Source of the DNA: a virus
Length of the DNA: 21,138 nucleotides
Strand: one strand, 5' to 3'
Virus record (IMG/VR): IMGVR_UViG_3300037395_000014
Span: 1 to 21,138 of that record
Position numbers and translations under genes: made by a program
Shown: one piece after another, positions 2,767 through 21,138 of the stretch
Position numbering within the stretch: position 1 is the first letter of the stretch
Layout: every line of letters begins with the position of its first letter
Notes under the pieces: generated by a model
The model's database searches: none
The model's input: the letters and a program-made list of their open reading frames with translations, nothing else
What the model was told of the DNA's origin: nothing

Positions 2767-5085
2767 TTGGCAACTGACAGAGACATCGCAATCGGGTTCC
2801 TTACGCGCGTTCTGCCTGCCGAGGGTCCCTACGCGCTTCGATCTCCATATAAGCCGGGCAAGGCGCCGAACCACGTAGAGTGGGCGGGCAATGTAACTGA
2901 GCTGTGGGACAAGATGTCGCAGCATGGTGACGTTAACTGCTTTTACTCTACAGCGGCTTTCAAGGATGACACGTCGCCAGATGCGGCCAATGTTCGGGCA
3001 AAGCGCACGTTCTACTTAGACGTAGAGGGAGACAAGGAACACTTTAAGAATGGTGCGGGGTATGATGGGCAGACCGCAGCCATAAAAGCGGTTATTGAGT
3101 TTTGTCAAGCTGTCAACCTGCCGTGGCCTGGTTTCGTACTATCTGGTGGCGGTGTGCATGCCTATTGGCCGCTCGACGGGGACATCAGCCCGGCAGTGTG
3201 GCAGCCATATGCGTCTGGCCTTAAGGCCGCGTGTAAGGAGAAGAAACTTATAATTGACCCAGCAATACCTGCTGACGCGGCTCGTATTCTGCGCTGTCCT
3301 GGTACGTTCAACTGCAAGAGGGAGCCTAAGACCGAGGTTACGATCCACGACGTTTTCTTCACGCTAGGCCCGTACAGCCTCGACGAGTTCGCCCCGCTAC
3401 TATCATATGCCCCAGAGGTTAAAGGGCTGCCAGCGGTCTCCCCAGAGGCCCGCTTTGAGGGCTCCGCCGCACTAAACGATCAGACTGCCGCGTATTATGG
3501 CGATGCCCTTGCCTCTATCCCGAACGATGACAGTGTGCCCTATGATACTTGGCTCAAGATCGGCATGGCCGTGTTTGAGCTTGGCTGGGGTGACGTGGGA
3601 CGCCAGATGTGGCATGACTGGAGCATAAAAGCGCCGAAACACAAGGAAGAGGAGTTTGACAACGCATGGAACGGATTTCTAAAATACCGGGAGACGCACC
3701 TGGACAACCTAGTGACGCCGGGCTCGCTGATCCACTTCGCCAAGGAAACGGGGTGGACAACCCCAGTTGGTATCGCGCCCCCGATATCTGCTACTGCCCC
3801 CTTTGTACCGCCGCCCGAGCTTTTGCAAAAGGCGGAGAAGGGGGACAGGTACGAGCTGCACAGCGCGAGGGTGAACGCGCAAGGTCCGCTAATGACGGGC
3901 AAGGACGGTAGCGGCTTCGCGGAGAACAAATGGCGTAACGCGACCTGGGCGCTTGTTAAGTTGGGTGTGCGCGGCCGCTGGGACGAGTTTTCAAACAACA
4001 GTGAAATCAAGTTTCCCGGCAGGCCGTGGGAACAAATTTCCAGCCGCACGGACAGCGACGCCAGACGCATGATAATGGAGGTGTGTTGTGGATCAGACCA
4101 AGGCAAGCATGCCGTCGAACAGGCTCTCGACGAACTCTGCGGTAACGTGGGGCGATATCATCCAATACGGGAACACTTACACGGACTTCGAGATTGGGAT
4201 GAAAAGCCCCGGCTGGACACCTGGCTCATTGATTACTGCCACGCTAGCGACACTCCTCTTAACCGATTTTATGGTGCCGCAGTCCTCGTCGCGGCTGTCC
4301 GCCGCGCACTTACCGACAGAATAATACGTTTTGACCACATGCTCGTACTAGAGGGTGGCACCGGCATAGGCAAAAGCTCTGTAGTCGAGATACTCGGGCG
4401 GGGCGCCGCGCCGGAGGGCTGGTATAAAAACCAAGAGATAAATTGGTTAGACCCGCGCTCCTCTGTAGAGGCGCTGCGCGGCGCCTGGTTCTACGAGTGG
4501 CCTGAGTTGAAGGGGCACGGCAAGCAGGCGGAGAACCACATCAAGAGCTGTTTGTCTAGTCCCATAGACAGCATACGTATGGCATACGATCGGAGGGTCA
4601 CTAGCTCGCCCCGGCGAGCCATACTTATCGCCACGACAAATTATGGCAGTGAGTACCTTACTGACCAGACGGGCAACCGGCGCTACTGGGTGGTAGACTG
4701 CGGTAGCAACAAGTTTAGGCTGGATGAACTGCGCCGGGATCGTGACCAGCTATTTGCTGAAGCACTGGTGTGGGAGAAGGAAGGGAGGATGGGCGCGTAT
4801 CTTGATACGCCCGAAGAGTTGGCGTCGGCGGAAAAAGCAGAACTTGAGCCTCGCACTACGGTGCCCCATTTAGTCGACTTCATCTCTCCCCTTACAAGCG
4901 GCGACGTGGAATTTCTAACGATGCACGACGTAAAGACTAGCACTTGGATGGCTAACCAAGGTGCGGCGAGGGATCAGGACATAGCTGCCGCGCTGCGCTG
5001 GCTTGGCTGGGAGCAAGACAAGTACAACAATTACAAGCTGCCAAATGGCGAACGGACGAGACGGTGGCGAAGGGTGGAAGCATGA
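2767..5085 (+). CDS. Primase-helicase (AEP primase, PriCT-2 and VirE-type SF3-like helicase)
   Basis: This 772-residue protein should prime and unwind DNA at the phage fork. I chose the TTG start because GGAGG lies about eight bases upstream and it follows the preceding stop; an ATG 54 bases earlier would overlap that gene. An archaeo-eukaryotic primase-like domain comes first: FYLDVE gives acidic D85 and E87, SGGGVHAYW has H131, and a third block has D164 and RCPGTFNCK. A PriCT-2-like region follows (WLKIGMAVFELGWG to the FAKETGW end). The C-terminal half matches the virulence-associated E family: Walker A EGGTGIGKSS at 529-538, Walker B WFYEWPEL with E577, and sensor-type ATTNYGSEYL and TGNRRYWVVD. 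Its TGA overlaps the polymerase start. All key motifs appear intact. Confidence 0.94.
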   Translation: MATDRDIAIGFLTRVLPAEGPYALRSPYKPGKAPNHVEWAGNVTELWDKMSQHGDVNCFYSTAAFKDDTSPDAANVRAKRTFYLDVEGDKEHFKNGAGYDGQTAAIKAVIEFCQAVNLPWPGFVLSGGGVHAYWPLDGDISPAVWQPYASGLKAACKEKKLIIDPAIPADAARILRCPGTFNCKREPKTEVTIHDVFFTLGPYSLDEFAPLLSYAPEVKGLPAVSPEARFEGSAALNDQTAAYYGDALASIPNDDSVPYDTWLKIGMAVFELGWGDVGRQMWHDWSIKAPKHKEEEFDNAWNGFLKYRETHLDNLVTPGSLIHFAKETGWTTPVGIAPPISATAPFVPPPELLQKAEKGDRYELHSARVNAQGPLMTGKDGSGFAENKWRNATWALVKLGVRGRWDEFSNNSEIKFPGRPWEQISSRTDSDARRMIMEVCCGSDQGKHAVEQALDELCGNVGRYHPIREHLHGLRDWDEKPRLDTWLIDYCHASDTPLNRFYGAAVLVAAVRRALTDRIIRFDHMLVLEGGTGIGKSSVVEILGRGAAPEGWYKNQEINWLDPRSSVEALRGAWFYEWPELKGHGKQAENHIKSCLSSPIDSIRMAYDRRVTSSPRRAILIATTNYGSEYLTDQTGNRRYWVVDCGSNKFRLDELRRDRDQLFAEALVWEKEGRMGAYLDTPEELASAEKAELEPRTTVPHLVDFISPLTSGDVEFLTMHDVKTSTWMANQGAARDQDIAAALRWLGWEQDKYNNYKLPNGERTRRWRRVEA

Positions 5086-6116
5086 GAACCCTCATTCTTG
5101 ACGCGGAAACATTCTACGCCCAGGACTTCACTTTGTCGCACATGACAAACGAGGAGTATGTGCGCGATCCTCGGTTCCAGACCCTTTGCCTCGGAGTAAA
5201 GGCGTTCGGCCTGCCTGATATGCTGATGTGCAGGGGGCCGGAGGAGGTAGCCAGGTGGTGTGCTGCGCAGGACTGGAGCGACATCGCGGCTGTCATGCAC
5301 CATGCCCAGTTTGACGGTTTCATACTTTCGGAGATTTATCATGTCCGTCCAGGTTTCATATTTGACACCCTCTCGATGGCTCACGCGGTTAATGGACCCC
5401 TCGAACCCGCTTCGCTCTCGGCCCTGGTGGCTAGGTGTGGCCTATCTGAGAAAACCGTTCCTTATAATTACTTCAAGGGAAAGCGATGGGAGCAGATGTC
5501 CGAGCAGCTACAGCAAGAGCTGTGCGACGGATGCGCACACGACTGCGAGCTTACCGAAGACATCTTCAAACGACTGGTACAAGATTTTCCCCGAGATGAA
5601 CTTGAGATCATAGACCAGACGGTGCGCATGTACACGGAGCCTCGCATGTGGGGCGATATAGAGCTGTTTGAAAAGCTTGCGCTAGAGGAGGAGGGGCGCA
5701 AGCGGGAGCTGCTCGCCGCGCTTAATGTGCCGCTGAAGGCCCTATCCTCTAACGCCACGTTTACCCGCCTGCTGGAGGCGTTTGGTGAAGAGGTGCCTAG
5801 CAAGCCTGGAGCTAAGGGGCCTATCCCTTGCGTGGCAGCATCGGACGCCTATATGATAGACAACATGGACCGGGATGACGCAGTGGGCCAGCTTATACGC
5901 TGCCGCATGGATGTCAAGAGTACCATACAAGAGACGCGCGCCGGACGCCTGGCGGGGATGGCCCGCCGCGGCCCGCTGCCGGTCTACCTGAAGTACGCCG
6001 CTGCCATGACCATGCGTTGGGGAGGCGGGGAGAAGACAAACATTCAGAACCTGCCCCATGATGGCCCGATGCGGTCGGGGCTTTGCGCGGAGAACCCTAA
6101 TGGAACAGTGGTCTGA
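5082..6116 (+). CDS. Family A DNA polymerase, N-terminal fragment (3'-5' exonuclease, thumb, start of palm)
   Basis: The ATG overlaps the primase stop (ATGA), with AAGGGTGG before it. The 344-residue product has a DnaQ-like proofreading domain: Exo I LILDAETF (D7, E9), Exo II HHAQFDGF (D78) and an Exo III-like GCAHDCELT (D154). In Exo III the usual Tyr four residues before the Asp seems to be Gly. The rest is thumb and early palm, ending with MRWGGGEKTNIQNLPHDGP, the conserved segment before motif A, then GTVV and a stop. Motifs A, B and C are missing here but lie on the ORF at 6310-7140. Together the two are 620 residues, a normal size for a short phage family A polymerase. The break falls inside the palm, not between domains. 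Confidence 0.94.
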   Translation: MRTLILDAETFYAQDFTLSHMTNEEYVRDPRFQTLCLGVKAFGLPDMLMCRGPEEVARWCAAQDWSDIAAVMHHAQFDGFILSEIYHVRPGFIFDTLSMAHAVNGPLEPASLSALVARCGLSEKTVPYNYFKGKRWEQMSEQLQQELCDGCAHDCELTEDIFKRLVQDFPRDELEIIDQTVRMYTEPRMWGDIELFEKLALEEEGRKRELLAALNVPLKALSSNATFTRLLEAFGEEVPSKPGAKGPIPCVAASDAYMIDNMDRDDAVGQLIRCRMDVKSTIQETRAGRLAGMARRGPLPVYLKYAAAMTMRWGGGEKTNIQNLPHDGPMRSGLCAENPNGTVV

Positions 6117-6270
6117 TAGGCTTACAATAGACGACGTGGAGGCTGTAATGATAAGCTGGAATGCGTATTTTAACATGTTGGTGCGACGCATGGTGGCTGA
6201 TGGCTGGCTGGTGGAGGATGCTATTGACGCGGCAAATGAGCAAATGAGAGCAATGGCGGAGAACCCAAAT
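6087..6270 (+). repeat. 15-nt near-direct repeats (6087-6101 and 6256-6270) bracketing the polymerase insert
   Basis: GCGGAGAACCCTAAT at 6087-6101 recurs as GCGGAGAACCCAAAT at 6256-6270, 169 bases apart with one mismatch. Both copies read Ala-Glu-Asn-Pro-Asn, the first in the polymerase N-fragment frame and the second in the frame of the 62-codon ORF. The first copy also holds the GGAG site for that ORF. This may be a duplication footprint of an insertion event or chance. Confidence 0.55.
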
Positions 6271-6288
6271 ATCAAAAAACTGCCGTAA
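6100..6288 (+). CDS. 62-aa ORF inserted between the two polymerase fragments
   Basis: The ATG overlaps the last 17 bases of the polymerase N-fragment, with GGAG seven bases upstream. The product is mainly one long amphipathic helix (DDVEAVMISWNAYFNMLV, VEDAIDAANEQMRAMAENP) with a basic end (IKKLP). It has no HNH, GIY-YIG or LAGLIDADG motif, so it is not a visible homing endonuclease. It shares the frame of the downstream polymerase fragment and is separated from it by one TAA plus seven sense codons. It could be a free-standing small protein, a bridge that helps the fragments pair, or part of a small intervening element. The function is unknown. Confidence 0.5.
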   Translation: MEQWSDRLTIDDVEAVMISWNAYFNMLVRRMVADGWLVEDAIDAANEQMRAMAENPNIKKLP

Positions 6289-6309
6289 AATTTTTTGGAG
6301 AAACACGGA

Positions 6310-7140
6310 ATGGGTAACAGCCTCTTCGCCCTAGATTTCAGCCAGATCGAGTACCGCATCCTGTGCGGGCTGGCGGGGCAGCAGGACAAGCTGGACGCGC
6401 TTGCCGCGGGCCGGGACCTGTACTGCGAGTTCGGAACCAAGCTGTTCAAGCGTCCCATCACCAAGGCAGATCGCAGCGAGCGTCAGTTCAGCAAGACCGA
6501 GGGCATCCTGTCGTGTGGCTATGGCAAGGGCAAGGACAAGGCGGCGACCCAGGCGAAGGCCAAGGGCTTTGACTTCCCCCGCGAGGTGACTGATGCCACG
6601 GTGGACGAGTACCGGGCGTCGCATCCCCGCGTAGTGCAGTTCTGGAAGACGTGTGACGCGGCCCTGCCACATATTGCCTCAGGGGAAGACTATCAAATTG
6701 TCAATACCCCCTTGACATTTTCAAACAAACACCTCATACTACCAAATGGACTGAAGTGCCGGATGGAGCTGGCATGGGCGCCGGAGGTTAAGTCATGGTT
6801 CAGGAAAGTTTACAGAGGCCCGATGGCCGCGTCCGGGGACAGTGTGGATACTCTGCGGAGCAAGGGCTATACGAAATACTGGGGTGGGGGTTTGACAGAG
6901 TTTACCTGCCAAGCGCTATCACGGGTGCGCCTCTCCGAGTTGATGTTACACGCGCGCCGCTCCCTGGGCATACGCCCTGTGTTTTTAGTCCACGACGAGT
7001 ACGTAGGCCTCGCACCGGATGACCAGTGCCAGGAGATACTCGACACGCTTATAGAGTTTGCCAGGCGCCCGTCACCGTGGTGGCCTGATGGACCTCCGTT
7101 TGACGCGGAGGGTATGGTTATGAAGAGGTACGCACACTAG
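6310..7140 (+). CDS. Family A DNA polymerase, C-terminal fragment (palm and fingers catalytic motifs)
   Basis: I chose the ATG at 6310 because GGAG (6297-6300) lies nine bases before it; an in-frame TTG at 6295 would lack this. The 276-residue product carries all polymerase catalytic motifs: motif A ALDFSQIEYR (D9), motif B R58-x3-K62 leading to GYG (Y71), and motif C VHDE (D229). It starts just before the motif A strand, so it needs the upstream fragment for exonuclease, thumb and part of the palm. The K62 to Y71 spacing is nine residues, one more than Lys758-Tyr766 of Klenow or Lys522-Tyr530 of T7 polymerase. The first 350 bases are far more GC-rich than what comes before or after. Confidence 0.94.
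   Translation: MGNSLFALDFSQIEYRILCGLAGQQDKLDALAAGRDLYCEFGTKLFKRPITKADRSERQFSKTEGILSCGYGKGKDKAATQAKAKGFDFPREVTDATVDEYRASHPRVVQFWKTCDAALPHIASGEDYQIVNTPLTFSNKHLILPNGLKCRMELAWAPEVKSWFRKVYRGPMAASGDSVDTLRSKGYTKYWGGGLTEFTCQALSRVRLSELMLHARRSLGIRPVFLVHDEYVGLAPDDQCQEILDTLIEFARRPSPWWPDGPPFDAEGMVMKRYAH
6712..6740 (+). promoter_or_regulatory. Sigma-70-like promoter candidate inside the polymerase C-fragment
   Basis: A perfect TTGACA -35 box (6712-6717) is followed, after exactly 17 bases, by CATACT (6735-6740), which matches TATAAT at four of six positions. It lies inside coding sequence in a locally AT-richer stretch, and would drive the genes after 7141. It may be fortuitous. Confidence 0.22.
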
Positions 7141-7151
7141 AGGAGAGATAC

Positions 7152-7391
7152 ATGGCTGACCATACATCTGAAGGGCTAGTATATAACATCGAGGAGGACC
7201 ACGAAGAACTACAGTTTATACACGAGGTGTTCGCTGGGGTACTTGGCGGCATCATCGAGCAGGTGCAGGAGGTGTACGTGCGCAGCGAGATTGCTAGGGG
7301 ACTGACCTTGGTGGCGACACCTTGCTGGGACCACTTGGAAGCTCGGCAGGCCATCGAGGATGAACATAACTATTGGTTCAACAATTACTAA
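7152..7391 (+). CDS. Hypothetical protein, 79 aa
   Basis: GAGGAGA lies just before the ATG. The protein is acidic and helical, with a hydrophobic central part (EVFAGVLGGIIEQVQEVYV) and a C-terminal helix (HLEARQAIEDEHNYWFNNY). The central segment is amphipathic rather than a clear membrane span. No family is recognised. It follows the polymerase by eleven bases and probably shares its transcript. Confidence 0.73.
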   Translation: MADHTSEGLVYNIEEDHEELQFIHEVFAGVLGGIIEQVQEVYVRSEIARGLTLVATPCWDHLEARQAIEDEHNYWFNNY

Positions 7392-12084: not shown

Positions 12085-13377
12085 TCAGTATTTGAACCCT
12101 GAAGCGTAGCCATGCTTCTGCAACTCGGGGATGAACTTAGACAGTTTGTCCCCGATGTCGTTCCTGTATAACACGTCGCCGGGTATGTTGAGTTGCTTTA
12201 GCGTGCGCATGGCATTCTCCTTCGCGCCCGTTACAGTGTCCGACACCCCGGTGACGACCATAGCATACTGTCCGGCCGTGGCCCACTCGGTCTCACGGCC
12301 TTTCTGGAGGTGATAAGGATGGAGCTTCTTTCTATTGTTGGCGGTGACACCGTAGACTGGAAAGTCTGTGACAAGTTCGAGGGGGCTTGGCTCGTATGGG
12401 AACGGGCTCATGCACATACTGATGCCGAGACTAATCGCTTCCTGTTTGAACGGGGATTTCACTCCCTTGCCCCGCGCGAGATCATACATCCAAGCGATTG
12501 GGTCGCCGTCCATAAGGGCGAGCTGTATCTGAAGCGATGGGTAGCCGAACCGAGTGGTGAACTCTAACGGCCAAGGTGTACCATGATCGTCGATGATGCA
12601 GTTAACGTCGATGTCTCCGAGAAACCCGATCTTGACCAGCTCGTCCTCAAGAGGTTTAAGCATCTTGTTGGCGAGCTTAGAGCACTTTGTTATCATAAGA
12701 ACGGTGCCCATCTCGCCCGTAGTCGTGCCGATCTCTCCTGGCATGAGCTTCTTGTGCTCGAAGTTCTCTTCCCACCCGCCGGAGAACCCGTCGCGCCCCA
12801 CATAACCCCCTACAGCGAACTCCGTCCCTGGCACAAAGTCCTGTAGGATGAACTCGCTTTTAATCTTCCCTTCCTTCTTCCACTTACCGAGCATGAACAG
12901 CATGTCTTCCGGCCCCTTGGAGCAGTAGGATAGGGACTTATCTGCGTCGCCGCAAGGTTTGGAAACCAGCCGCACGTCGTCCCGCTTCTTGACATATGCC
13001 ACGGCCTGCTCATATGTGGTGCATAACTGTGTAGGAGGGCATTTGATACCATGACGCTCAAGCACCTTCATCCCGAGAAGACGGTCCGTCTCCCACGCTG
13101 CGCCTATAGCGTTCGCACCGAAGACGACTTTTTCGGGGTGTTCGGCCCGGAAATGGTCGAGGACCCGGAGGTTCTTACAGTTGTCAGCCAGCACCGTCAT
13201 GTCCGCCCAGCGGAGCCACGCCTTGAAGTCACCTGTGCGTTTGACGAGACCTTTGCCGACTAGGCAGTAGTGTCGCTCGTTAGGGTTGACATAGTAGACC
13301 ACCTCGTGTTTCGCCTCCTGCGCTCGCAGGGCCAGGTCTAGCATATCGCCGAACGGATCGACAAACAGTACCTTCAT
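12085..13377 (-). CDS. PurD-like ATP-grasp enzyme (phosphoribosylamine-glycine ligase homologue), 430 aa
   Basis: I chose the ATG at 13377, with GGGGAGA six bases upstream, over a GTG at 13392. An N-terminal Rossmann-like part (MKVLFVDPFGDMLD) precedes an ATP-grasp fold: FGANAIGAAWETDRL, K140 in RLVSKPCGDADKS, ILQDFVPGTEFAVGGY, GEMGTVLM (221-227) and LEFTTRFGYPSLQIQ (E272, R276). The order and length match PurD, the GAR synthetase of purine synthesis. However, the EFNxRFGDPE signature of PurD reads EFTTRFGYPS, so metal- or substrate-site residues have changed. Phage ATP-grasp proteins are often annotated as PurD without proof. It closes the leftward structural operon and overlaps a small acidic ORF upstream. 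It could make a nucleotide precursor or ligate an amino group to another substrate. Confidence 0.88.
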   Translation of the reverse strand: MKVLFVDPFGDMLDLALRAQEAKHEVVYYVNPNERHYCLVGKGLVKRTGDFKAWLRWADMTVLADNCKNLRVLDHFRAEHPEKVVFGANAIGAAWETDRLLGMKVLERHGIKCPPTQLCTTYEQAVAYVKKRDDVRLVSKPCGDADKSLSYCSKGPEDMLFMLGKWKKEGKIKSEFILQDFVPGTEFAVGGYVGRDGFSGGWEENFEHKKLMPGEIGTTTGEMGTVLMITKCSKLANKMLKPLEDELVKIGFLGDIDVNCIIDDHGTPWPLEFTTRFGYPSLQIQLALMDGDPIAWMYDLARGKGVKSPFKQEAISLGISMCMSPFPYEPSPLELVTDFPVYGVTANNRKKLHPYHLQKGRETEWATAGQYAMVVTGVSDTVTGAKENAMRTLKQLNIPGDVLYRNDIGDKLSKFIPELQKHGYASGFKY

Positions 13378-13448
13378 TCTGGCTCTCCCCACGGGTCAAG
13401 AATAAGCTCGTCGTCATCCTCGTCCCAGTCGTCCGGTTCAGTGAACAT
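13374..13448 (-). CDS. Acidic 24-aa peptide coupled to the ATP-grasp gene
   Basis: AGGAG (minus strand of 13455-13459) precedes two adjacent ATGs; the one at 13448 has the better spacing. The peptide is extremely acidic (DDWDEDDDE) and ends LDPWGEPE. Its TGA overlaps the ATG of the PurD-like gene, so translation should be coupled. The DPW triplet also recurs in the large upstream virion protein. It may be a leader peptide, a small partner protein or a substrate of the enzyme. Real translation is unproven. Confidence 0.42.
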   Translation of the reverse strand: MFTEPDDWDEDDDELILDPWGEPE

Positions 13449-13460
13449 CATGGGCTCCTG

Positions 13461-16400
13461 TTAGTGTGGCTTCCTAGGTCTAGGTTTAGTTGAATACGGC
13501 TCGTGTGTCAAGCCTGGGCCTAGTGGCAGCAGTGTCTCCGCCCAGTTCTTGGGCTTAGGCTTCTGCCCCTCTACCTGCTCTCTGGTTTTCTCCGGCAGGA
13601 ACCCTTCAAGCTGCCCGAATATGGGTATGTCTTTGAGCAGCTTACCTATCAACTGCCCGTTGGTCTCCGCGGTGCTGCCCACCTGCTGTGCCTTGCGCCC
13701 GGAGTTCCTTATCTTCCCCTCGGTGTGTGTGGCCCAGTCAGCGAACATAGACGCTAGTGGGGTAAGTGACTGGCCTATAAGTGAGGCTGCCGCCCAGGGA
13801 GTTACTGTACCGCGTACCACGTCTGTCGCAGCCTGCATCACAGCCATGGCTCCGTGACGGGTCATCATGGCCCGCTGGTCACCCGTCATCTCTTTGAACT
13901 TCTCGTCTATCCATGGCATGGCTATGGATAGCCCTAGCCCCAGGAGCACAGCTTGCTTCAGCGCCCGCTGTGCCTCGAACGCAGACTTAGCAGCTCCAGC
14001 CTTATCACCGCCTACCGCCCTCTGTGTCGCCTGCGCTGCCTTGAACGCGGCCTCCAGCGGCTTCATGGACTGCTGTATGGTGAAGTAGTGATACCTGGCA
14101 AAGTTATTCACCAGCTTACCCAGCTTGTCTTCAGTGAACGCCGATGGCGCGCGAGATATCTTAGCAGCCAGCTCTCCCATCTCTGGGTGTGGTACCTCGG
14201 TAGGTATGCGGTACGGGGGGACGGCCTTGTGGGCCTGCCTGATGGCGTCATCCAGCCCCATGGCCTTGTGCAGCGGCCCGGACTGCATGTAGTCACGCAC
14301 CTGCGTCAGCATCATAAGGTCCTGGGCGTACCCCATGGCGTCGTGAGACGCTTTCCACCACGCCGCAACAGGTGCCGCGGCCTTGCCTGCTAGGCTAGGT
14401 GCGGGCTTCTCCTCTCCTGACATGAGGCGCACCATGTCCTCCATGGTAGTGTAGGCTTGCGCCGCCTTGTCGCTAGACGTCCAGAGAGCCCCGCCGTGCT
14501 CCAGCACCTTGCGGTAGAACCCGTCGTTGCGGCCCTGCATGTCCTGTACGGCCTTCAGGAAGTTCTTCGGCGACGACAGGTGTATGTCGGACAGGAAGCC
14601 CACACCTACGTTGAGTATGTGGGGGATAGGGATGCCGAACATGGTACGGGTGAGGAACTGGTTAGCCGCTACAGCCTGGTCTATGAGGCCCACCTTGCTA
14701 GTGTCAATACCGCCCCAGCGGTCCAGCGCGGCGGCTAGCCTAGGCTCGACATAGGTGCCTTGCATACCGGGGAACTCGGTGGTACGCCACCCCTTGCTCT
14801 TCCCCACGTTCTCCCCGCCAGCCCAGCCGCGCTCCATCATCTCGGCCTTGAGAGCCTTGGTGTCTGCCATCTCCCGGATGGACCTCTCTAGGTGTATCTC
14901 GGCCAGCTTGTAGGCGACCAGGGGGTCCTTGATGTACTTCTCCGGGGTTGGCAGGTCCTTGGTGGCCTCCTCTATCTCTCCTATGCGGGCTGTCTTGGTG
15001 TCGTAGCTGCCCTCAAATATGGCGCGGTCTCTATCATTCTCGGGCCGCACTAATGTGAAGTTCTTAGTCTTGGGGTTCATGCGCACCACGGCGCGCTCCC
15101 CGTTAGGTGCCTCTATGGCGTGATACACCCGCTGGTTCAGGCTCATGTCATCGGACTTGCGTGTCATGCCGCGGCCACGCCTGCCCGAGATGGGGTCCAT
15201 GGCCTCTTGCTGGTCTAGGTTTAGCTGCCTGTCCGCGTATCGCTCTGGTATGCGTGGCATGTAGTTCTTGTCGAACTCGGCCTTCATGGCCTCTATGTCG
15301 TCGTTGGAGTAGCCACCTTCTTGCCTCGCCATGGCTACCCGTTGGTTGTACAGGTCGTACACTTTCTCCTGCAGGGGCACGATTAATTTCTCGTGTAGGG
15401 CCTCCTGCGCGGGGGTGAGTGGCACAGAGGTATCACCCTGGGACTTAGCCAGTAGCGCGTTAACCGTGTTAGGGTCCTTCAGCTCAGGGTGTTCCTTCAC
15501 AGCCCCCTGTAGGAACTCGTTGGCCTGCTGTAAGTTCGACTGGTGTGCACCCTCTCTCTGGTAGTGGCTAAGGTCTATAGCGTTCACGTCCTCTCGGGTG
15601 ACTGGTCCTGTAGCCTTGGGGGCTTGCTCTGCCCCTACGGCGGGGCGCTGGCTAAACCTGGAGTGTCCGTTAACGAAGTCAGCTAAATCCTCCGGCGACT
15701 TTATAAGCCCAGCATCATAGGCGGGCTTGGCGTCTGTCAATACCTTATCTTTAACACCGGCAAACGTATTCTTGCCGGACTGCAATGATTTGAATAGTCC
15801 CTCGTATAAGTTTGAAGTCATACTCTTGCCCATACCTGACAAGTTTACAGAGCCACTCCCAGTAGCTGGTGGTGCTTCTGCGGGGGCTGCTGGCTGAGGG
15901 GTTTCGGCGGCTGGTATGGTAGTAGCGGAGGCATCCTTGGAGGGCACTCCAGGCTTCTCCCACGCAGCCGGGTTTTCTGCTCCGATGAAGCCTCCTGTCT
16001 TCTCGAACGCTCGGCCCATGGCGCCTAGCGGTCCAGTCACTAGCGGCGTCAGCGCACCTGCGACGGAGCCTGCCTGCCCGAGTAGCTTGCTGGGTATGTC
16101 GCTGTGCGCCCGCGAGTAGTCTTGCCCCTGCTGGTAGCCCTCAGCCATCTGCCGCGGTATATCAGTGATCGGCTCCAGCGTATCGGCTACTTCCGCGCCA
16201 ACCTGCTTGGCGGACGGTAGCGAGGCATAGGCGCTCTTGATGTCGTCGACCAGGCCGCCGCCCTCGGCTGGCTTGCCCTGCGGCTTGAACGCTGCCCACG
16301 GGTCTGTCTTGTCTGTAGCAGGGGCCTGCGGCTTGAACGCTGCCCACGGGTCTGTCTTGTCTGTAGCAGGGGCCTGCGGCTTGAACGCTGCCCACGGGTC

Positions 16401-17120
16401 TGTCTTACTGTCCAAAGTTTGTATACTATTTCGGACAGGAGCCTGTTGTGTTGACGTGGGGGCGGTGGGGGCCGTCACTGCCTGTGTGGTAAACTTGGGC
16501 ATCCACTTGTTGACGAAGGCGGATGCAGGCGCGCTTGGGTCGCCACCGTTAGCCGATATGTGTCGCGCCGGGACCAGGGAGCCTGCGGGCTTGTCAGGGT
16601 TCTGCAACATGCTGAGAGCGCCCGCGGCCCCCTGCTGGTGTGCTAAGTACAGCTCGTGAGGCGCAGGCTCCCGGCCCAGTGCCCCCTTTAATGTGTCGTA
16701 GTTCTCCCGTGTACCCCTCTCGAAGCGTTCATCCTCGGTTCCCTGCCCGCCCCACCCAGGCCCCATTTGATAGGTGCCATGATACTGTGAGCCTGGCCGG
16801 TCTGGTATGGTGCTACCCCGGCTTTCTATAGCAGCCGTTGACTTCTTGTACTGGTCGAAGTTTAAGCTGCCCCACTGGTTATCGGGCTGCTGTGCGGGCT
16901 GCTGTGCGGGCTGCTGTGCGGGCTGCTGTGCGGGCTGCTGTGCGGGCTGCTGTGCGGGCTGCTGTGCGGGCTGCTGTGCGGGCGCTTGCTGAGGTGCCTG
17001 TGGCTTGAATACGGACCATGGGTCAGCGGCCGGTGCTGTCGCTGCACCTCCAAATTTCTGTACTACGTCGGCAGGCTCCCCCTGCTGCGTAGTGTATTTA
17101 GCCCATGGGTCGTCTGTCAC
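13461..17120 (-). CDS. Internal virion (ejection) protein with lysozyme-like domain, 1219 aa
   Basis: The start is GTG in a GTGA overlap with the upstream gene. A disordered N-terminus carries DPWAKY (4-9), DPWSVFKPQ (33-41) and eight AQQP units (to about 80). Residues 85-210 form a lysozyme/transglycosylase-like domain: AAIESRG with E99 as probable acid, YHGTYQMGPGWG, and LYLAHQQGAAGA. Three DPWAAFKPQ repeats follow (241-281). The long remainder is helical, with a hydrophobic region near the C-terminus (LLGLGLSIAMPWIDEKF), as in proteins that enter the cell envelope during DNA ejection. The size and layout fit the large internal proteins of podoviruses, which locally degrade peptidoglycan. 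This is family inference; the catalytic type is not certain. Confidence 0.88.
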   Translation of the reverse strand: MTDDPWAKYTTQQGEPADVVQKFGGAATAPAADPWSVFKPQAPQQAPAQQPAQQPAQQPAQQPAQQPAQQPAQQPAQQPDNQWGSLNFDQYKKSTAAIESRGSTIPDRPGSQYHGTYQMGPGWGGQGTEDERFERGTRENYDTLKGALGREPAPHELYLAHQQGAAGALSMLQNPDKPAGSLVPARHISANGGDPSAPASAFVNKWMPKFTTQAVTAPTAPTSTQQAPVRNSIQTLDSKTDPWAAFKPQAPATDKTDPWAAFKPQAPATDKTDPWAAFKPQGKPAEGGGLVDDIKSAYASLPSAKQVGAEVADTLEPITDIPRQMAEGYQQGQDYSRAHSDIPSKLLGQAGSVAGALTPLVTGPLGAMGRAFEKTGGFIGAENPAAWEKPGVPSKDASATTIPAAETPQPAAPAEAPPATGSGSVNLSGMGKSMTSNLYEGLFKSLQSGKNTFAGVKDKVLTDAKPAYDAGLIKSPEDLADFVNGHSRFSQRPAVGAEQAPKATGPVTREDVNAIDLSHYQREGAHQSNLQQANEFLQGAVKEHPELKDPNTVNALLAKSQGDTSVPLTPAQEALHEKLIVPLQEKVYDLYNQRVAMARQEGGYSNDDIEAMKAEFDKNYMPRIPERYADRQLNLDQQEAMDPISGRRGRGMTRKSDDMSLNQRVYHAIEAPNGERAVVRMNPKTKNFTLVRPENDRDRAIFEGSYDTKTARIGEIEEATKDLPTPEKYIKDPLVAYKLAEIHLERSIREMADTKALKAEMMERGWAGGENVGKSKGWRTTEFPGMQGTYVEPRLAAALDRWGGIDTSKVGLIDQAVAANQFLTRTMFGIPIPHILNVGVGFLSDIHLSSPKNFLKAVQDMQGRNDGFYRKVLEHGGALWTSSDKAAQAYTTMEDMVRLMSGEEKPAPSLAGKAAAPVAAWWKASHDAMGYAQDLMMLTQVRDYMQSGPLHKAMGLDDAIRQAHKAVPPYRIPTEVPHPEMGELAAKISRAPSAFTEDKLGKLVNNFARYHYFTIQQSMKPLEAAFKAAQATQRAVGGDKAGAAKSAFEAQRALKQAVLLGLGLSIAMPWIDEKFKEMTGDQRAMMTRHGAMAVMQAATDVVRGTVTPWAAASLIGQSLTPLASMFADWATHTEGKIRNSGRKAQQVGSTAETNGQLIGKLLKDIPIFGQLEGFLPEKTREQVEGQKPKPKNWAETLLPLGPGLTHEPYSTKPRPRKPH
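16279..16406 (-). repeat. 48-bp tandem repeat, 2.7 copies, coding
   Basis: Two complete and one partial (32-base) copies occur at 16279-16326, 16327-16374 and 16375-16406, with no mismatch seen. Each unit encodes 16 residues containing TDPWAAFKPQAPATDK. Perfect identity suggests a recent duplication. The repeat keeps the reading frame. Confidence 0.9.
16884..16979 (-). repeat. 12-bp tandem repeat, 8 perfect copies, coding AQQP
   Basis: GGGCTGCTGTGC on the plus strand is repeated eight times without a mismatch. On the minus strand it encodes Ala-Gln-Gln-Pro units in the linker between the DPW motifs and the lysozyme-like domain. Copy-number change would alter linker length in steps of four residues without a frameshift. 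Confidence 0.93.
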
Positions 17121-19313: not shown

Positions 19314-21138
19314 CTAGTTCCCAGGGGCGCGGGAAGTGAAACCGGACTGACTGACGGGTAGTTGGAACGAGCCGAGCCGTACCCCAGCCTGCGCTGTAGT
19401 GCTGACGCTAACCGACGCCATGTTGAACACAATGGGACTGGGCCATGTGATGTCGAACGGGGCGAGAAACGTGGCCGCACTCTCCGTGTAGCCAGTGTAT
19501 ATGGCCGAGCTACCTAGCACGTTGCCGTTCACATCTTGCACTGACACGTTGTATAGGTTGCCCCCTGCTGGTACGCCGAAGTAGGCTAGTGAGCGCACTG
19601 CGGATAGCTCGCTCATGTCGTTGCGGTCCGGTATCAGGGCAGACGTAGACACACACTGCATGGGGCTGCCTAGCTCCGTGTAGGAGCTAGCCGCTGTCGG
19701 CACCAGGCTAAAGTTGTACAGCCCCGTCACTGTAGACGAGGTGTAGGGAGACACGAAGAACGAGTTGCCCAGGCTGTTTATGAGCCCCACAGGGAAGGTG
19801 TGCGGGCCATGCCAGCACTGCCGTGTGATATCGTACACCCACGTCTCTATGTTGCTCGTGACACTATTAAACATCCCGAAACACAGGTTGCTTGCGTTGT
19901 AAGCGCCAGCTATTCGGGACAGCGGTGAGGCATATACGAAGGGGGAGGGCTTACCCGAGCCGCCGTAGCCGATGGGGGGCTGCATGTGCCCCTGCAGGTC
20001 TATGTAGCGCAGCCCATCAGGGGCAGCGAAGAACAGACCTAGGGGTGTGGAGATGACACTGTTGGGCGCCGTGGTGCTCACGTTAGCGTTCATCTTCTGG
20101 AGTGACAGGTTACTCGTACCCGAGCCACTCGCGCCCTCCACGTCTCCAGTTATCTGGAACACGTCAGGCGATCCCTGTCCTGCGGACTTGAACACGTACA
20201 GCGCCTGCACCACGCCGCCCGTGGTCAAGTTGGTCAGCGACAGACAGCCCATGCCTACAAGGGGCGTTAGGTCTCCGAAAGTCAGTATGACGCCCGCGAC
20301 CGCGGCGCTCCGCGAGAGCGGTCCACTAGCTACGCCTAGCACGTCGGAGAACTCGACAGAGGGGGGCGTGTTGCCACCAGGGTTCAAGGCGAACCACGCG
20401 CGCCCATTAAACTGTGTGATCCACACGGGCACTGATGGTAAAGGGTTGGTAAGCGTGTTCTGCGCGGTGTAGGTAAGCGCCGCTATCGTGGGGTAATAGG
20501 TTATGACTATGACGCCGCCGCCGCCAGCTCCGCCGCCGCCTGCCGCACTACCGCCGCCCGCACCACCACTTGAGCCGCTGGACTTCTCGCCACCGCCACC
20601 GCCACCGCCACCACCTGGCCCGCCGCCGCCGCCACCGCCGCCAGCTCCATAGCCACTAGCCGACCCGCCAGCGGCACCGTAGCCCGTACCGCCCCCGCCA
20701 CCGTTCTGCTGACTGCCTGCACCGTAGCCACCGCCACCGCCACCTGCCGCACCTGCACCTGCACCGCCTACGCCCGCTAATCCAGCAGGACCCGCTGCTG
20801 CGCCGCCCGCGCCGCCCGCGCCGCCCGCACCACCGTTGCCGCCCGCGCCGCCTGTACCATAATAATTAGCGCCGCCGCCGCCGCCCGCCACGCCACCGCC
20901 GCCAGGCGCGCCGCCGCCGCCAGGTGAATATCCTGTACCATAATACGCGCCGCTAGACCCCCCGCCAGCCTGCAATGTAGTGGGAGTGTTGAACCACGTT
21001 GGGCCACCGCCCGTGCCAATAAGATACGGGCAAGAAGCCCCCGGAGTTAGAGCAAGGTTGGTATAATACGCCCACCCGGCGCCTGTGCCTCCCGTGCCGC
21101 CCGTGCCACCGTTGCCGCCCGCGCCACCTGAGCCGCCC
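19314..21138 (-). CDS. Tail protein: Gly-rich region fused to a nozzle-like β-propeller (partial, N-terminus beyond window)
   Basis: The reading frame stays open to the window edge, so about 607 C-terminal residues are visible and the true start is outside. The first 190 are almost pure Gly/Ala with rare Tyr (GGYGAGSQQNGGGGGTGYG), interrupted near the edge by a Trp/Tyr-containing strand segment (WAYYTNLALTPGAS). The rest is β-rich with propeller-like blades (VWITQFNGRAWFALNPGG, PLGLFFAAPDGLRYIDLQG, ETWVYDITRQCWHGPHTF), like the tail tubular B/nozzle proteins of podoviruses. Its first-in-order place before the internal virion proteins fits that. The Gly-rich part resembles the glycine-rich domains of phage fibers or adhesins. 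The nozzle call is fold-level inference. Confidence 0.83.
   Translation of the reverse strand, partial: GGSGGAGGNGGTGGTGGTGAGWAYYTNLALTPGASCPYLIGTGGGPTWFNTPTTLQAGGGSSGAYYGTGYSPGGGGAPGGGGVAGGGGGANYYGTGGAGGNGGAGGAGGAGGAAAGPAGLAGVGGAGAGAAGGGGGGYGAGSQQNGGGGGTGYGAAGGSASGYGAGGGGGGGGPGGGGGGGGGEKSSGSSGGAGGGSAAGGGGAGGGGVIVITYYPTIAALTYTAQNTLTNPLPSVPVWITQFNGRAWFALNPGGNTPPSVEFSDVLGVASGPLSRSAAVAGVILTFGDLTPLVGMGCLSLTNLTTGGVVQALYVFKSAGQGSPDVFQITGDVEGASGSGTSNLSLQKMNANVSTTAPNSVISTPLGLFFAAPDGLRYIDLQGHMQPPIGYGGSGKPSPFVYASPLSRIAGAYNASNLCFGMFNSVTSNIETWVYDITRQCWHGPHTFPVGLINSLGNSFFVSPYTSSTVTGLYNFSLVPTAASSYTELGSPMQCVSTSALIPDRNDMSELSAVRSLAYFGVPAGGNLYNVSVQDVNGNVLGSSAIYTGYTESAATFLAPFDITWPSPIVFNMASVSVSTTAQAGVRLGSFQLPVSQSGFTSRAPGN
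20507..21138 (-). repeat. GC-rich triplet-like repeats coding Gly-rich region
   Basis: CCGCCA, CCGCCG and CCGCCC type hexamers dominate this stretch and encode long Gly/Ala runs in the tail protein. The repeats are imperfect and broken by Tyr, Thr and Ser codons. Low complexity makes assembly here less reliable, and the region continues past the window edge. Confidence 0.7.

Follow-up and report, generated by a model that had tools for sequence, protein, structure and literature searches.

How does a virus obtain a DNA polymerase from a gene that is cut in two a few codons away from its catalytic aspartate? This question is raised by IMG/VR virus record IMGVR_UViG_3300037395_000014, of which we analyzed positions 1 to 21,138 as one strand (21,138 bases in all, hereafter called the window; this 21-kb record may be a fragment). 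In the window, a family A DNA polymerase (PolA) is encoded by two successive open reading frames (ORFs), referred to here as the N-fragment and the C-fragment, with an insert between them. We consider it likely that the split gene is read as three coupled ORFs following the insertion of a short foreign coding segment, and that the two polymerase chains assemble into the enzyme.

Two reading frames together encode a family A DNA polymerase

A first-pass annotation, made from the letters of the window and its ORF list, had described a two-ORF split with motifs A, B, and C on the second ORF. The ORFs and their matches to the phrog_17 DNA polymerase profile bear this out. In profile searches, the N-fragment matched profile positions 670-1005 (3.9e-20) and the C-fragment matched positions 1006-1232 (8.5e-30), so that by this profile the two are consecutive parts of one protein. 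The phrog_17 match extends across the exonuclease and polymerase parts in order, which assigns the pair to the family A DNA polymerases. Additionally, the N-fragment was 47% identical to the closest continuous relative (L011) and matched PF01612 at 1.2e-4, slightly under the curated cut-off, and the C-fragment matched PF00476 at 2.9e-11.

The N-fragment comprises the 3'-5' exonuclease, the thumb, and the first part of the palm, and its C-terminal end is NIQNLPHDGPMRSGLCAENPNGTVV (...AENPNGTVV). The C-fragment lies in a different frame, starts with MGNSLFALDFSQIEYR at the turn and the motif A strand, and makes up palm and fingers, carrying motifs A, B, and C. Together, these neighboring ORFs, each with start signals, cover one polymerase, which is the arrangement of a natural split polymerase. 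The C-fragment had been annotated as having its own GGAG site and ATG in another frame about 190 bases farther on; both signals are present (Table 1), and the ATG lies 193 nucleotides (nt) from the N-fragment stop. From the alignments we read DxE, HAQFDG, and CAHD in the N-fragment, which we take to be exo I, exo II, and exo III. In the C-fragment we read motif A (DxSQxE), the O-helix residues RxxxK..YG of motif B (pattern RxxxKx7YG), and motif C with its HDE. Motifs A and C conform to these patterns; motif B has its residues, but its K and YG are one position farther apart. The annotated claim that all exonuclease and polymerase motifs occur across the two ORFs thus holds for the residues themselves, with motif B one residue longer than its pattern.

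The cut lies at the turn leading into the motif A strand

When the window was searched with L011, the two resulting matches met at a single residue in the turn ahead of motif A (glycine 337 in L011); at this place continuous relatives read, for example in L011, LRKALHAPDGWKLAVIDLSQ. The end of the N-fragment (NGTVV) and the start of the C-fragment (MGNSL) occupy the same five positions, and both L011 matches end or begin at glycine 337; thus, the window carries two copies of the conserved turn glycine. When the window was joined at GTVV/FALD, 8 residues separated the proline of the turn from the aspartate of motif A, identical to all 61 rows with a PxG pattern among the 77 aligned, and removal of 211 nt at any of the five places restored this spacing. 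The loop upstream of the turn proline is two residues longer in the window than in most rows and has the same length in two of them (L076 and L088).

By the alignment of L011 with Taq polymerase, the cut falls just before the motif A aspartate of Taq. In the AlphaFold2 model of L011 (mean predicted local distance difference test [pLDDT], 92.1), the strand formed by residues 338 to 345 carries the motif A aspartate, residue 344, which would place the cut at the turn and the first residues of that strand. The C-fragment modeled alone was predicted to fold, with a pLDDT of 88.7 and a first strand at residues 3 to 10 (alignment of 19 sequences); its best fold match was Taq polymerase 1qss_A (expectation value [E], 1e-10), an agreement that derives partly from the continuous relatives in its alignment. 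The earlier description of two chains rejoining within the palm is therefore correct as to the place, because the joint is at the turn and the strand leading into motif A; the rejoining is something that we infer.

The insert contains a small gene, and its junction sequence is duplicated

The insert is, judging from its codon usage, largely a coding gene of 62 amino acids (aa). When scored against the codon usage of ten further ORFs that we chose on the plus strand of the window, its codon signal was +0.222 per codon in frame, versus -0.363 and -0.513 in the other forward frames, and an ORF of this length appeared in 53 of 5000 mononucleotide shuffles of the 231 nt. The insert has a G+C content of 46.4%, versus 58.0% for the window. 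The best family matches of the 62-aa protein were weak (phrog_24136, E of 0.0097; DUF6631, 0.11), and the ORF matched no nuclease family in Pfam or PHROGs, so that no homing endonuclease was found in the insert. A repeat search revealed two copies of the junction sequence that agree at 14 of 15 nt, a match equaled in none of 1000 dinucleotide shuffles, and both copies encode AENPN in the frame that is used at each place. A shorter repeat, read by eye, relates AATGGAACAG at 6099-6108 to AATGGGTAACAG at 6309-6320. From their sequence, these junction repeats look like a duplication made at insertion. The first-pass annotation contained neither the 62-aa ORF nor the duplicated junction nor the extra O-helix residue.

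Start signals were compared as the energy of the duplex formed with the anti-Shine-Dalgarno sequence. The value for the N-fragment was -7.0 kcal/mol, and those for the two internal starts were similar (Table 1). Since 17.9% of the 352 ATGs in the window reach -6.0 kcal/mol, the Shine-Dalgarno sites are supportive and not decisive. No terminator-like site was found in 4900-7300. The same region has four promoter-like sites (1.3 expected), none of them within the insert and the best within the C-fragment, at 6712-6740. Upstream of the polymerase is a primase-helicase gene with PriCT_2 and VapE-like domains, the stop of which overlaps the N-fragment ATG as ATGA at 5082-5085.

Table 1. Features of the split polymerase locus, in window coordinates
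Feature	Coordinates	Strand	Details and basis
PolA N-fragment, 344 aa	5082..6116	+	ATG 5082, TGA 6114-6116; ORF list and sequence
PolA C-fragment, 276 aa	6310..7140	+	ATG 6310, stop 7138-7140; ORF list and sequence
Insert relative to continuous relatives, 211 nt	6114..6324 (equally 6102-6312)	+	Ends not fixable within the five residues NGTVV/MGNSL
Small inserted gene, 62 aa	6100..6288	+	Overlaps last 17 nt of N-fragment ORF; codon signal
GGAG Shine-Dalgarno of small ORF	6089..6092	+	Within N-fragment coding sequence; -6.6 kcal/mol, 7 nt before ATG
GGAG Shine-Dalgarno of C-fragment	6297..6300	+	-6.4 kcal/mol, 9 nt before ATG
Duplicated junction sequence, 5' copy, GCGGAGAACCCTAAT	6087..6101	+	Repeat search
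Duplicated junction sequence, 3' copy, GCGGAGAACCCAAAT	6256..6270	+	Repeat search; near small-ORF C terminus (AENPN)

Interrupted polymerases among related loci

Related polymerase loci were collected from three scans of viral contigs with N-fragment alignments, one such scan with a C-fragment alignment, one scan of genome contigs, and four early loci, giving 299 scored loci. Each viral scan kept the best 80 of 310 to 598 confirmed relatives (at least that many in three of the scans), and some contigs came up in more than one; with the best 80 kept per scan, the set is a sample and not a census. Outside the 299 stand the window itself (L003 and L004) and four more distant polymerases (L001, L002, L007, and L008), each a single ORF or coding sequence. 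The polymerase was continuous in one open frame at 287 of the sampled loci (260 distinct sequences), incomplete at 7, and interrupted in 5 rows. Among the incomplete loci, three without a C-half match all end soon after the N-half match (L075, L182, and L184), two start at a contig end (L240 and L286), and two were scored as incomplete yet are continuous, with an N-half that is too divergent (L243 and L283). The five interrupted rows correspond to four contigs (L057, L063, L092, and L183), because L063 and L091 are the same contig.

Two of these contigs are cut in the same turn as the window, a few residues apart from it. In L063, the N-half ends with LRRAIKAP and is followed by a 99-codon ORF, the ATG of which overlaps the N-half stop and the stop of which overlaps the start of the C-half, MTQFKIGKVDLAQIECR; the 99-aa protein matches phrog_1123 at 4.3e-5 and appears winged-helix-like by eye. 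L092 has the same cut as L063 and no insert: its N ORF (...LRRAIKAP*) and its C ORF (MKLGKIDLSQIECR) share a stop/start overlap, ATGA, in the junction ...AAGGCACCATGAAGCTG... The two contigs are 62% identical in each half and form fully supported sisters among continuous sequences in trees of 77 and of 39 polymerases. The C-half has a ratio of nonsynonymous to synonymous substitution rates (dN/dS) of 0.25 by the Nei-Gojobori method; for the N-half, the proportions of nonsynonymous (pN) and synonymous (pS) differences are 0.275 and 0.742 (pN/pS of 0.37, with synonymous sites saturated). Thus, both halves are under purifying selection, and, given their identity of only 62%, L063 and L092 have kept a two-gene polymerase through a long divergence. 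Because two distant relatives of the window polymerase have their cut in almost the same position, it appears that two chains can make up the enzyme.

The other two contigs are interrupted differently. The polymerase of L057 (2036-4455) is cut about 45 residues earlier than that of the window by a free-standing GIY-YIG homing endonuclease (PF01541, 5.9e-6; phrog_314, 4.4e-23), the ORF of which overlaps both halves. In L005:7049-7756, an ORF recognized by eye as GIY-YIG-like also starts where a continuous polymerase of the window's family ends. The L183 polymerase gave a group I intron match (RF00028; E of 1.5e-5, 31.6 bits) that is under the gathering score of 50 and constitutes a subthreshold but clear candidate, possibly an intron of an archaeal virus. 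On this contig, which is labeled Methanocorpusculum, the interrupted polymerase is at L183:3900-6930, and the candidate intron overlaps an ORF of HNH-like appearance, as judged by eye.

No split polymerase was found in the named phages, which had a single annotated coding sequence in 12 of 12 regions from 11 phages (Rollin twice); the regions that came from N-half searches were those of Rollin, phiR18, RHph_TM3_14A, and phiA008, out of 11 and 12 matched records. Three PHROGs (phrog_10285, phrog_2573, and phrog_7766) match only the C-terminal parts of PolA-like polymerases, and fragmentary or interrupted polymerases may therefore exist in other deposited phages.

How the split gene may be expressed

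We propose that a short foreign coding segment interrupted the polymerase gene at the turn into the motif A strand and duplicated some of the target sequence. One mRNA would then carry three coupled ORFs, encoding the N-fragment, the 62-aa protein, and the C-fragment. After ending the N-fragment at 6116, ribosomes would begin again on the overlapping small ORF and once more on the C-fragment, the ATG of which lies 21 nt beyond the small-ORF stop; direct initiation at the internal Shine-Dalgarno sites would be possible as well. Both chains would thus be translated and would associate noncovalently into one active site capable of polymerization, with the N-chain supplying the exonuclease, the thumb, and part of the palm and the C-chain supplying the motif A strand, the fingers, and the remaining palm.

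Several observations weigh against this proposal. The split version found in the window is known from a single contig of a metagenomic virus record. Searches for a homolog of its 62-aa gene found none in phages or in the 299 related loci (E up to 1 in both cases) and none that could be confirmed in viral contigs; in 84 loci they gave only four chance-level matches (E of 1.8 to 8.1). The Shine-Dalgarno sites of the inner ORFs of L063 and L092 are weak (-3.0, -2.8, and -4.5 kcal/mol), so that coupling at the ATGA overlaps is likely there and free initiation is not. In the trees of 77 and 39 polymerases, the window falls elsewhere than L063 and L092, on a long branch of 1.1 to 1.9 changes per column. 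A single common split for all three was rejected when they were forced into one clade (P of 0.011, for a group named after the tree had been seen and with the window as a long branch), and two independent splits, one in the window and one in the lineage of L063 and L092, are likely from these trees. Lastly, the O-helix segment of the window, RQFSKTEGILSCGYG, has 15 residues, versus 14 in the other 76 of 77 rows, and the C-fragment has a 16-residue insertion at about residues 165 to 183 that is missing from four aligned relatives and modeled with low confidence. On sequence grounds, these two changes may reflect adaptation, changed enzyme properties, or decay, and the long branch together with the extra O-helix residue could mean that the enzyme is altered or dead.

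The last of these points bears on an alternative that we hold to be unlikely but worth serious attention, namely, that the insertion broke the polymerase, which is now inactive or decaying, and that the phage relies on a host or other polymerase. The long branch, the unique O-helix residue, and the 16-residue insertion would all fit such decay, but the ORFs remain open over 344 and 276 codons with coding signal and Shine-Dalgarno sites, and the residues of motifs A and C are kept. The end branches of the two halves are alike (1.05 and 1.10), and nearly the same split is under purifying selection in L063 and L092. A search with L011 at E up to 1 also found no second polymerase of this kind in the window, although the record may be a fragment. 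A related idea, that the C-half is a foreign, chimeric piece, was rejected: The row closest to the C-half was L011 (39%), which also shared the top value of 46% for the N-half with three other rows, and trees built from either half alone placed L011 and L015 among the nearest rows. As the same rows are nearest in both halves, there is no sign of a foreign C-half.

The first-pass annotation had left the choice between a two-chain enzyme and RNA splicing. Removal of the 211 nt by a self-splicing RNA, of group I or similar type, would bring the two halves back into frame, give the usual distance between the turn and motif A, and yield one continuous protein; a group I intron is also indicated in the related L183, and such introns are described as common in Bastillevirinae DNA polymerase genes in an excerpt of PMC11878797. 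Nevertheless, no intron family was found in the insert region with Rfam (5900-6500, both strands, E up to 10), where the five matches included no intron and were all far under gathering scores, and the group I core (RF00028) had no match up to E of 10 in this region; a search of the same type did reveal the L183 candidate. The insert RNA folds no better than expected (z of +1.4; 185 of 200 shuffles fold at least as well). A coding gene preceded by a Shine-Dalgarno site takes up most of the insert, and in L092 the polymerase is split at almost the same point with nothing inserted. Group I introns follow a U...G rule at the exon/intron ends, and we did find ends that fit this rule together with short pairings between exon and internal guide sequence, but these are expected by chance with about 15 registers and have no supporting core. 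In addition, the 45 introns in the excerpt of PMC11878797 average 802 nt, versus 211 nt here. A group I or other intron in the insert is thus highly improbable, and of the two options in the annotation, the two-chain enzyme is the one favored by the Shine-Dalgarno sites, the coding signal of the insert, and the split relatives. L057 and L063 likewise gave no Rfam match at gathering thresholds.

An assembly or sequencing fault has very little to recommend it. The window version comes from a single metagenomic contig, yet the insert lies in the same turn as the splits of the IMG/VR contigs L063 and L092, and both new starts have Shine-Dalgarno sites, which are not expected from a fault. We find it scarcely credible that a ribosomal bypass or frameshift makes one chain. 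T4 gene 60 is the precedent for bypass, with a gap of about 50 nt that is short, a take-off codon followed at once by a stop, and a matching landing codon, and the L092 halves do overlap by a -1 step. The 211 nt of the window are far above the gene 60 gap, however; the gap to be bypassed would be about 205 nt, and the stop is the fourth codon after the take-off codon considered (GGA, 6102-6104), not the next one. No slippery heptamer was recognized on reading the L092 overlap, and in the window the internal Shine-Dalgarno sites make reinitiation the simpler course.

The proposal of two assembling chains can be extended to the family, and here we are more tentative, the odds being somewhat against us: the turn before motif A could be a natural fission seam of phage family A polymerases, opened at least two times independently with chains that remain functional, and hosting small passenger genes (of 62 aa here and of 99 aa, winged-helix-like, in L063) that are possibly coupled third subunits or regulators.

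Relation to known split genes

Split polymerases of phages are already known from family B and the polymerase III type, as described in parts of PMC2988022 and PMC7824862. The closest comparison is with gp43A/43B of the T4-like Aeromonas phages 25 and 44RR, in which the replicative polymerase is likewise encoded as two ORFs, with a short untranslated insert in 44RR and a seg homing endonuclease in 25; 43A and 43B of phage 25 copurify and are active (excerpt of PMC2988022). Unlike these family B enzymes, the window polymerase belongs to family A, is split directly before motif A, and has an insert with a 62-aa coding gene. The same excerpt describes the split nrdA of phage Aeh1 and the split topoisomerase gene of T4, in which a catalytic gene is also interrupted and the halves are separate polypeptides that must assemble (PMC2988022). 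Those are other enzymes with a recognizable homing endonuclease, whereas none was recognized in the window; L057 has one. Phage polymerases are also interrupted by the group I introns of the Bastillevirinae and SPO1, in the Bastillevirinae within the same PHROG family 17 (excerpt of PMC11878797), but those introns splice, and no intron model matches the insert of the window. The DNA polymerase III alpha of group 2.2 jumbo phages is made as two separate proteins according to part of PMC7824862. In contrast to the window, theirs is a polymerase III type enzyme, with distantly located genes and no adjacent insert.

T7 RNA polymerase is a single-subunit enzyme with the same general palm-fingers-thumb architecture. 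It has been bisected in five regions with function kept (excerpt of PMC4299498), although, unlike in the window, this split was engineered, in an RNA polymerase and at other seams. By analogy with this enzyme and with 43A/43B, and given the selection on both halves in L063 and L092 and a C-half that is predicted to fold alone, assembly of the two window chains is plausible.

Among the matches listed from the open-licence literature, none was recognizable by its title or the start of its abstract as a split family A phage DNA polymerase cut in the palm. Beside the family B and polymerase III precedents found here, the window contributes a family A polymerase interrupted a few residues from the catalytic aspartate. 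Together with the related pair, whose cut has persisted under purifying selection and amounts in one member to nothing more than an ATGA overlap, it is a simple system in which to ask how a palm domain assembles from two chains. Further questions concern how genes stay split when no mobile element remains and whether such seams serve regulation or could be used for engineered split polymerases.

Other genes in the window

Three features on the minus strand lie apart from the polymerase. At 12085-13392, the window encodes an ATP-grasp enzyme resembling phosphoribosylglycinamide synthetase (GARS_A, 6.3e-7), which to our knowledge is unusual in a phage and possibly serves purine supply or nucleotide modification. 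A 1219-aa protein at 13461-17120 has AQQP repeats and repeats of TDPWAAFKPQAPA, with no Pfam match at E of 0.01. At 19314-21137, a very glycine-rich ORF runs off the end of the record.

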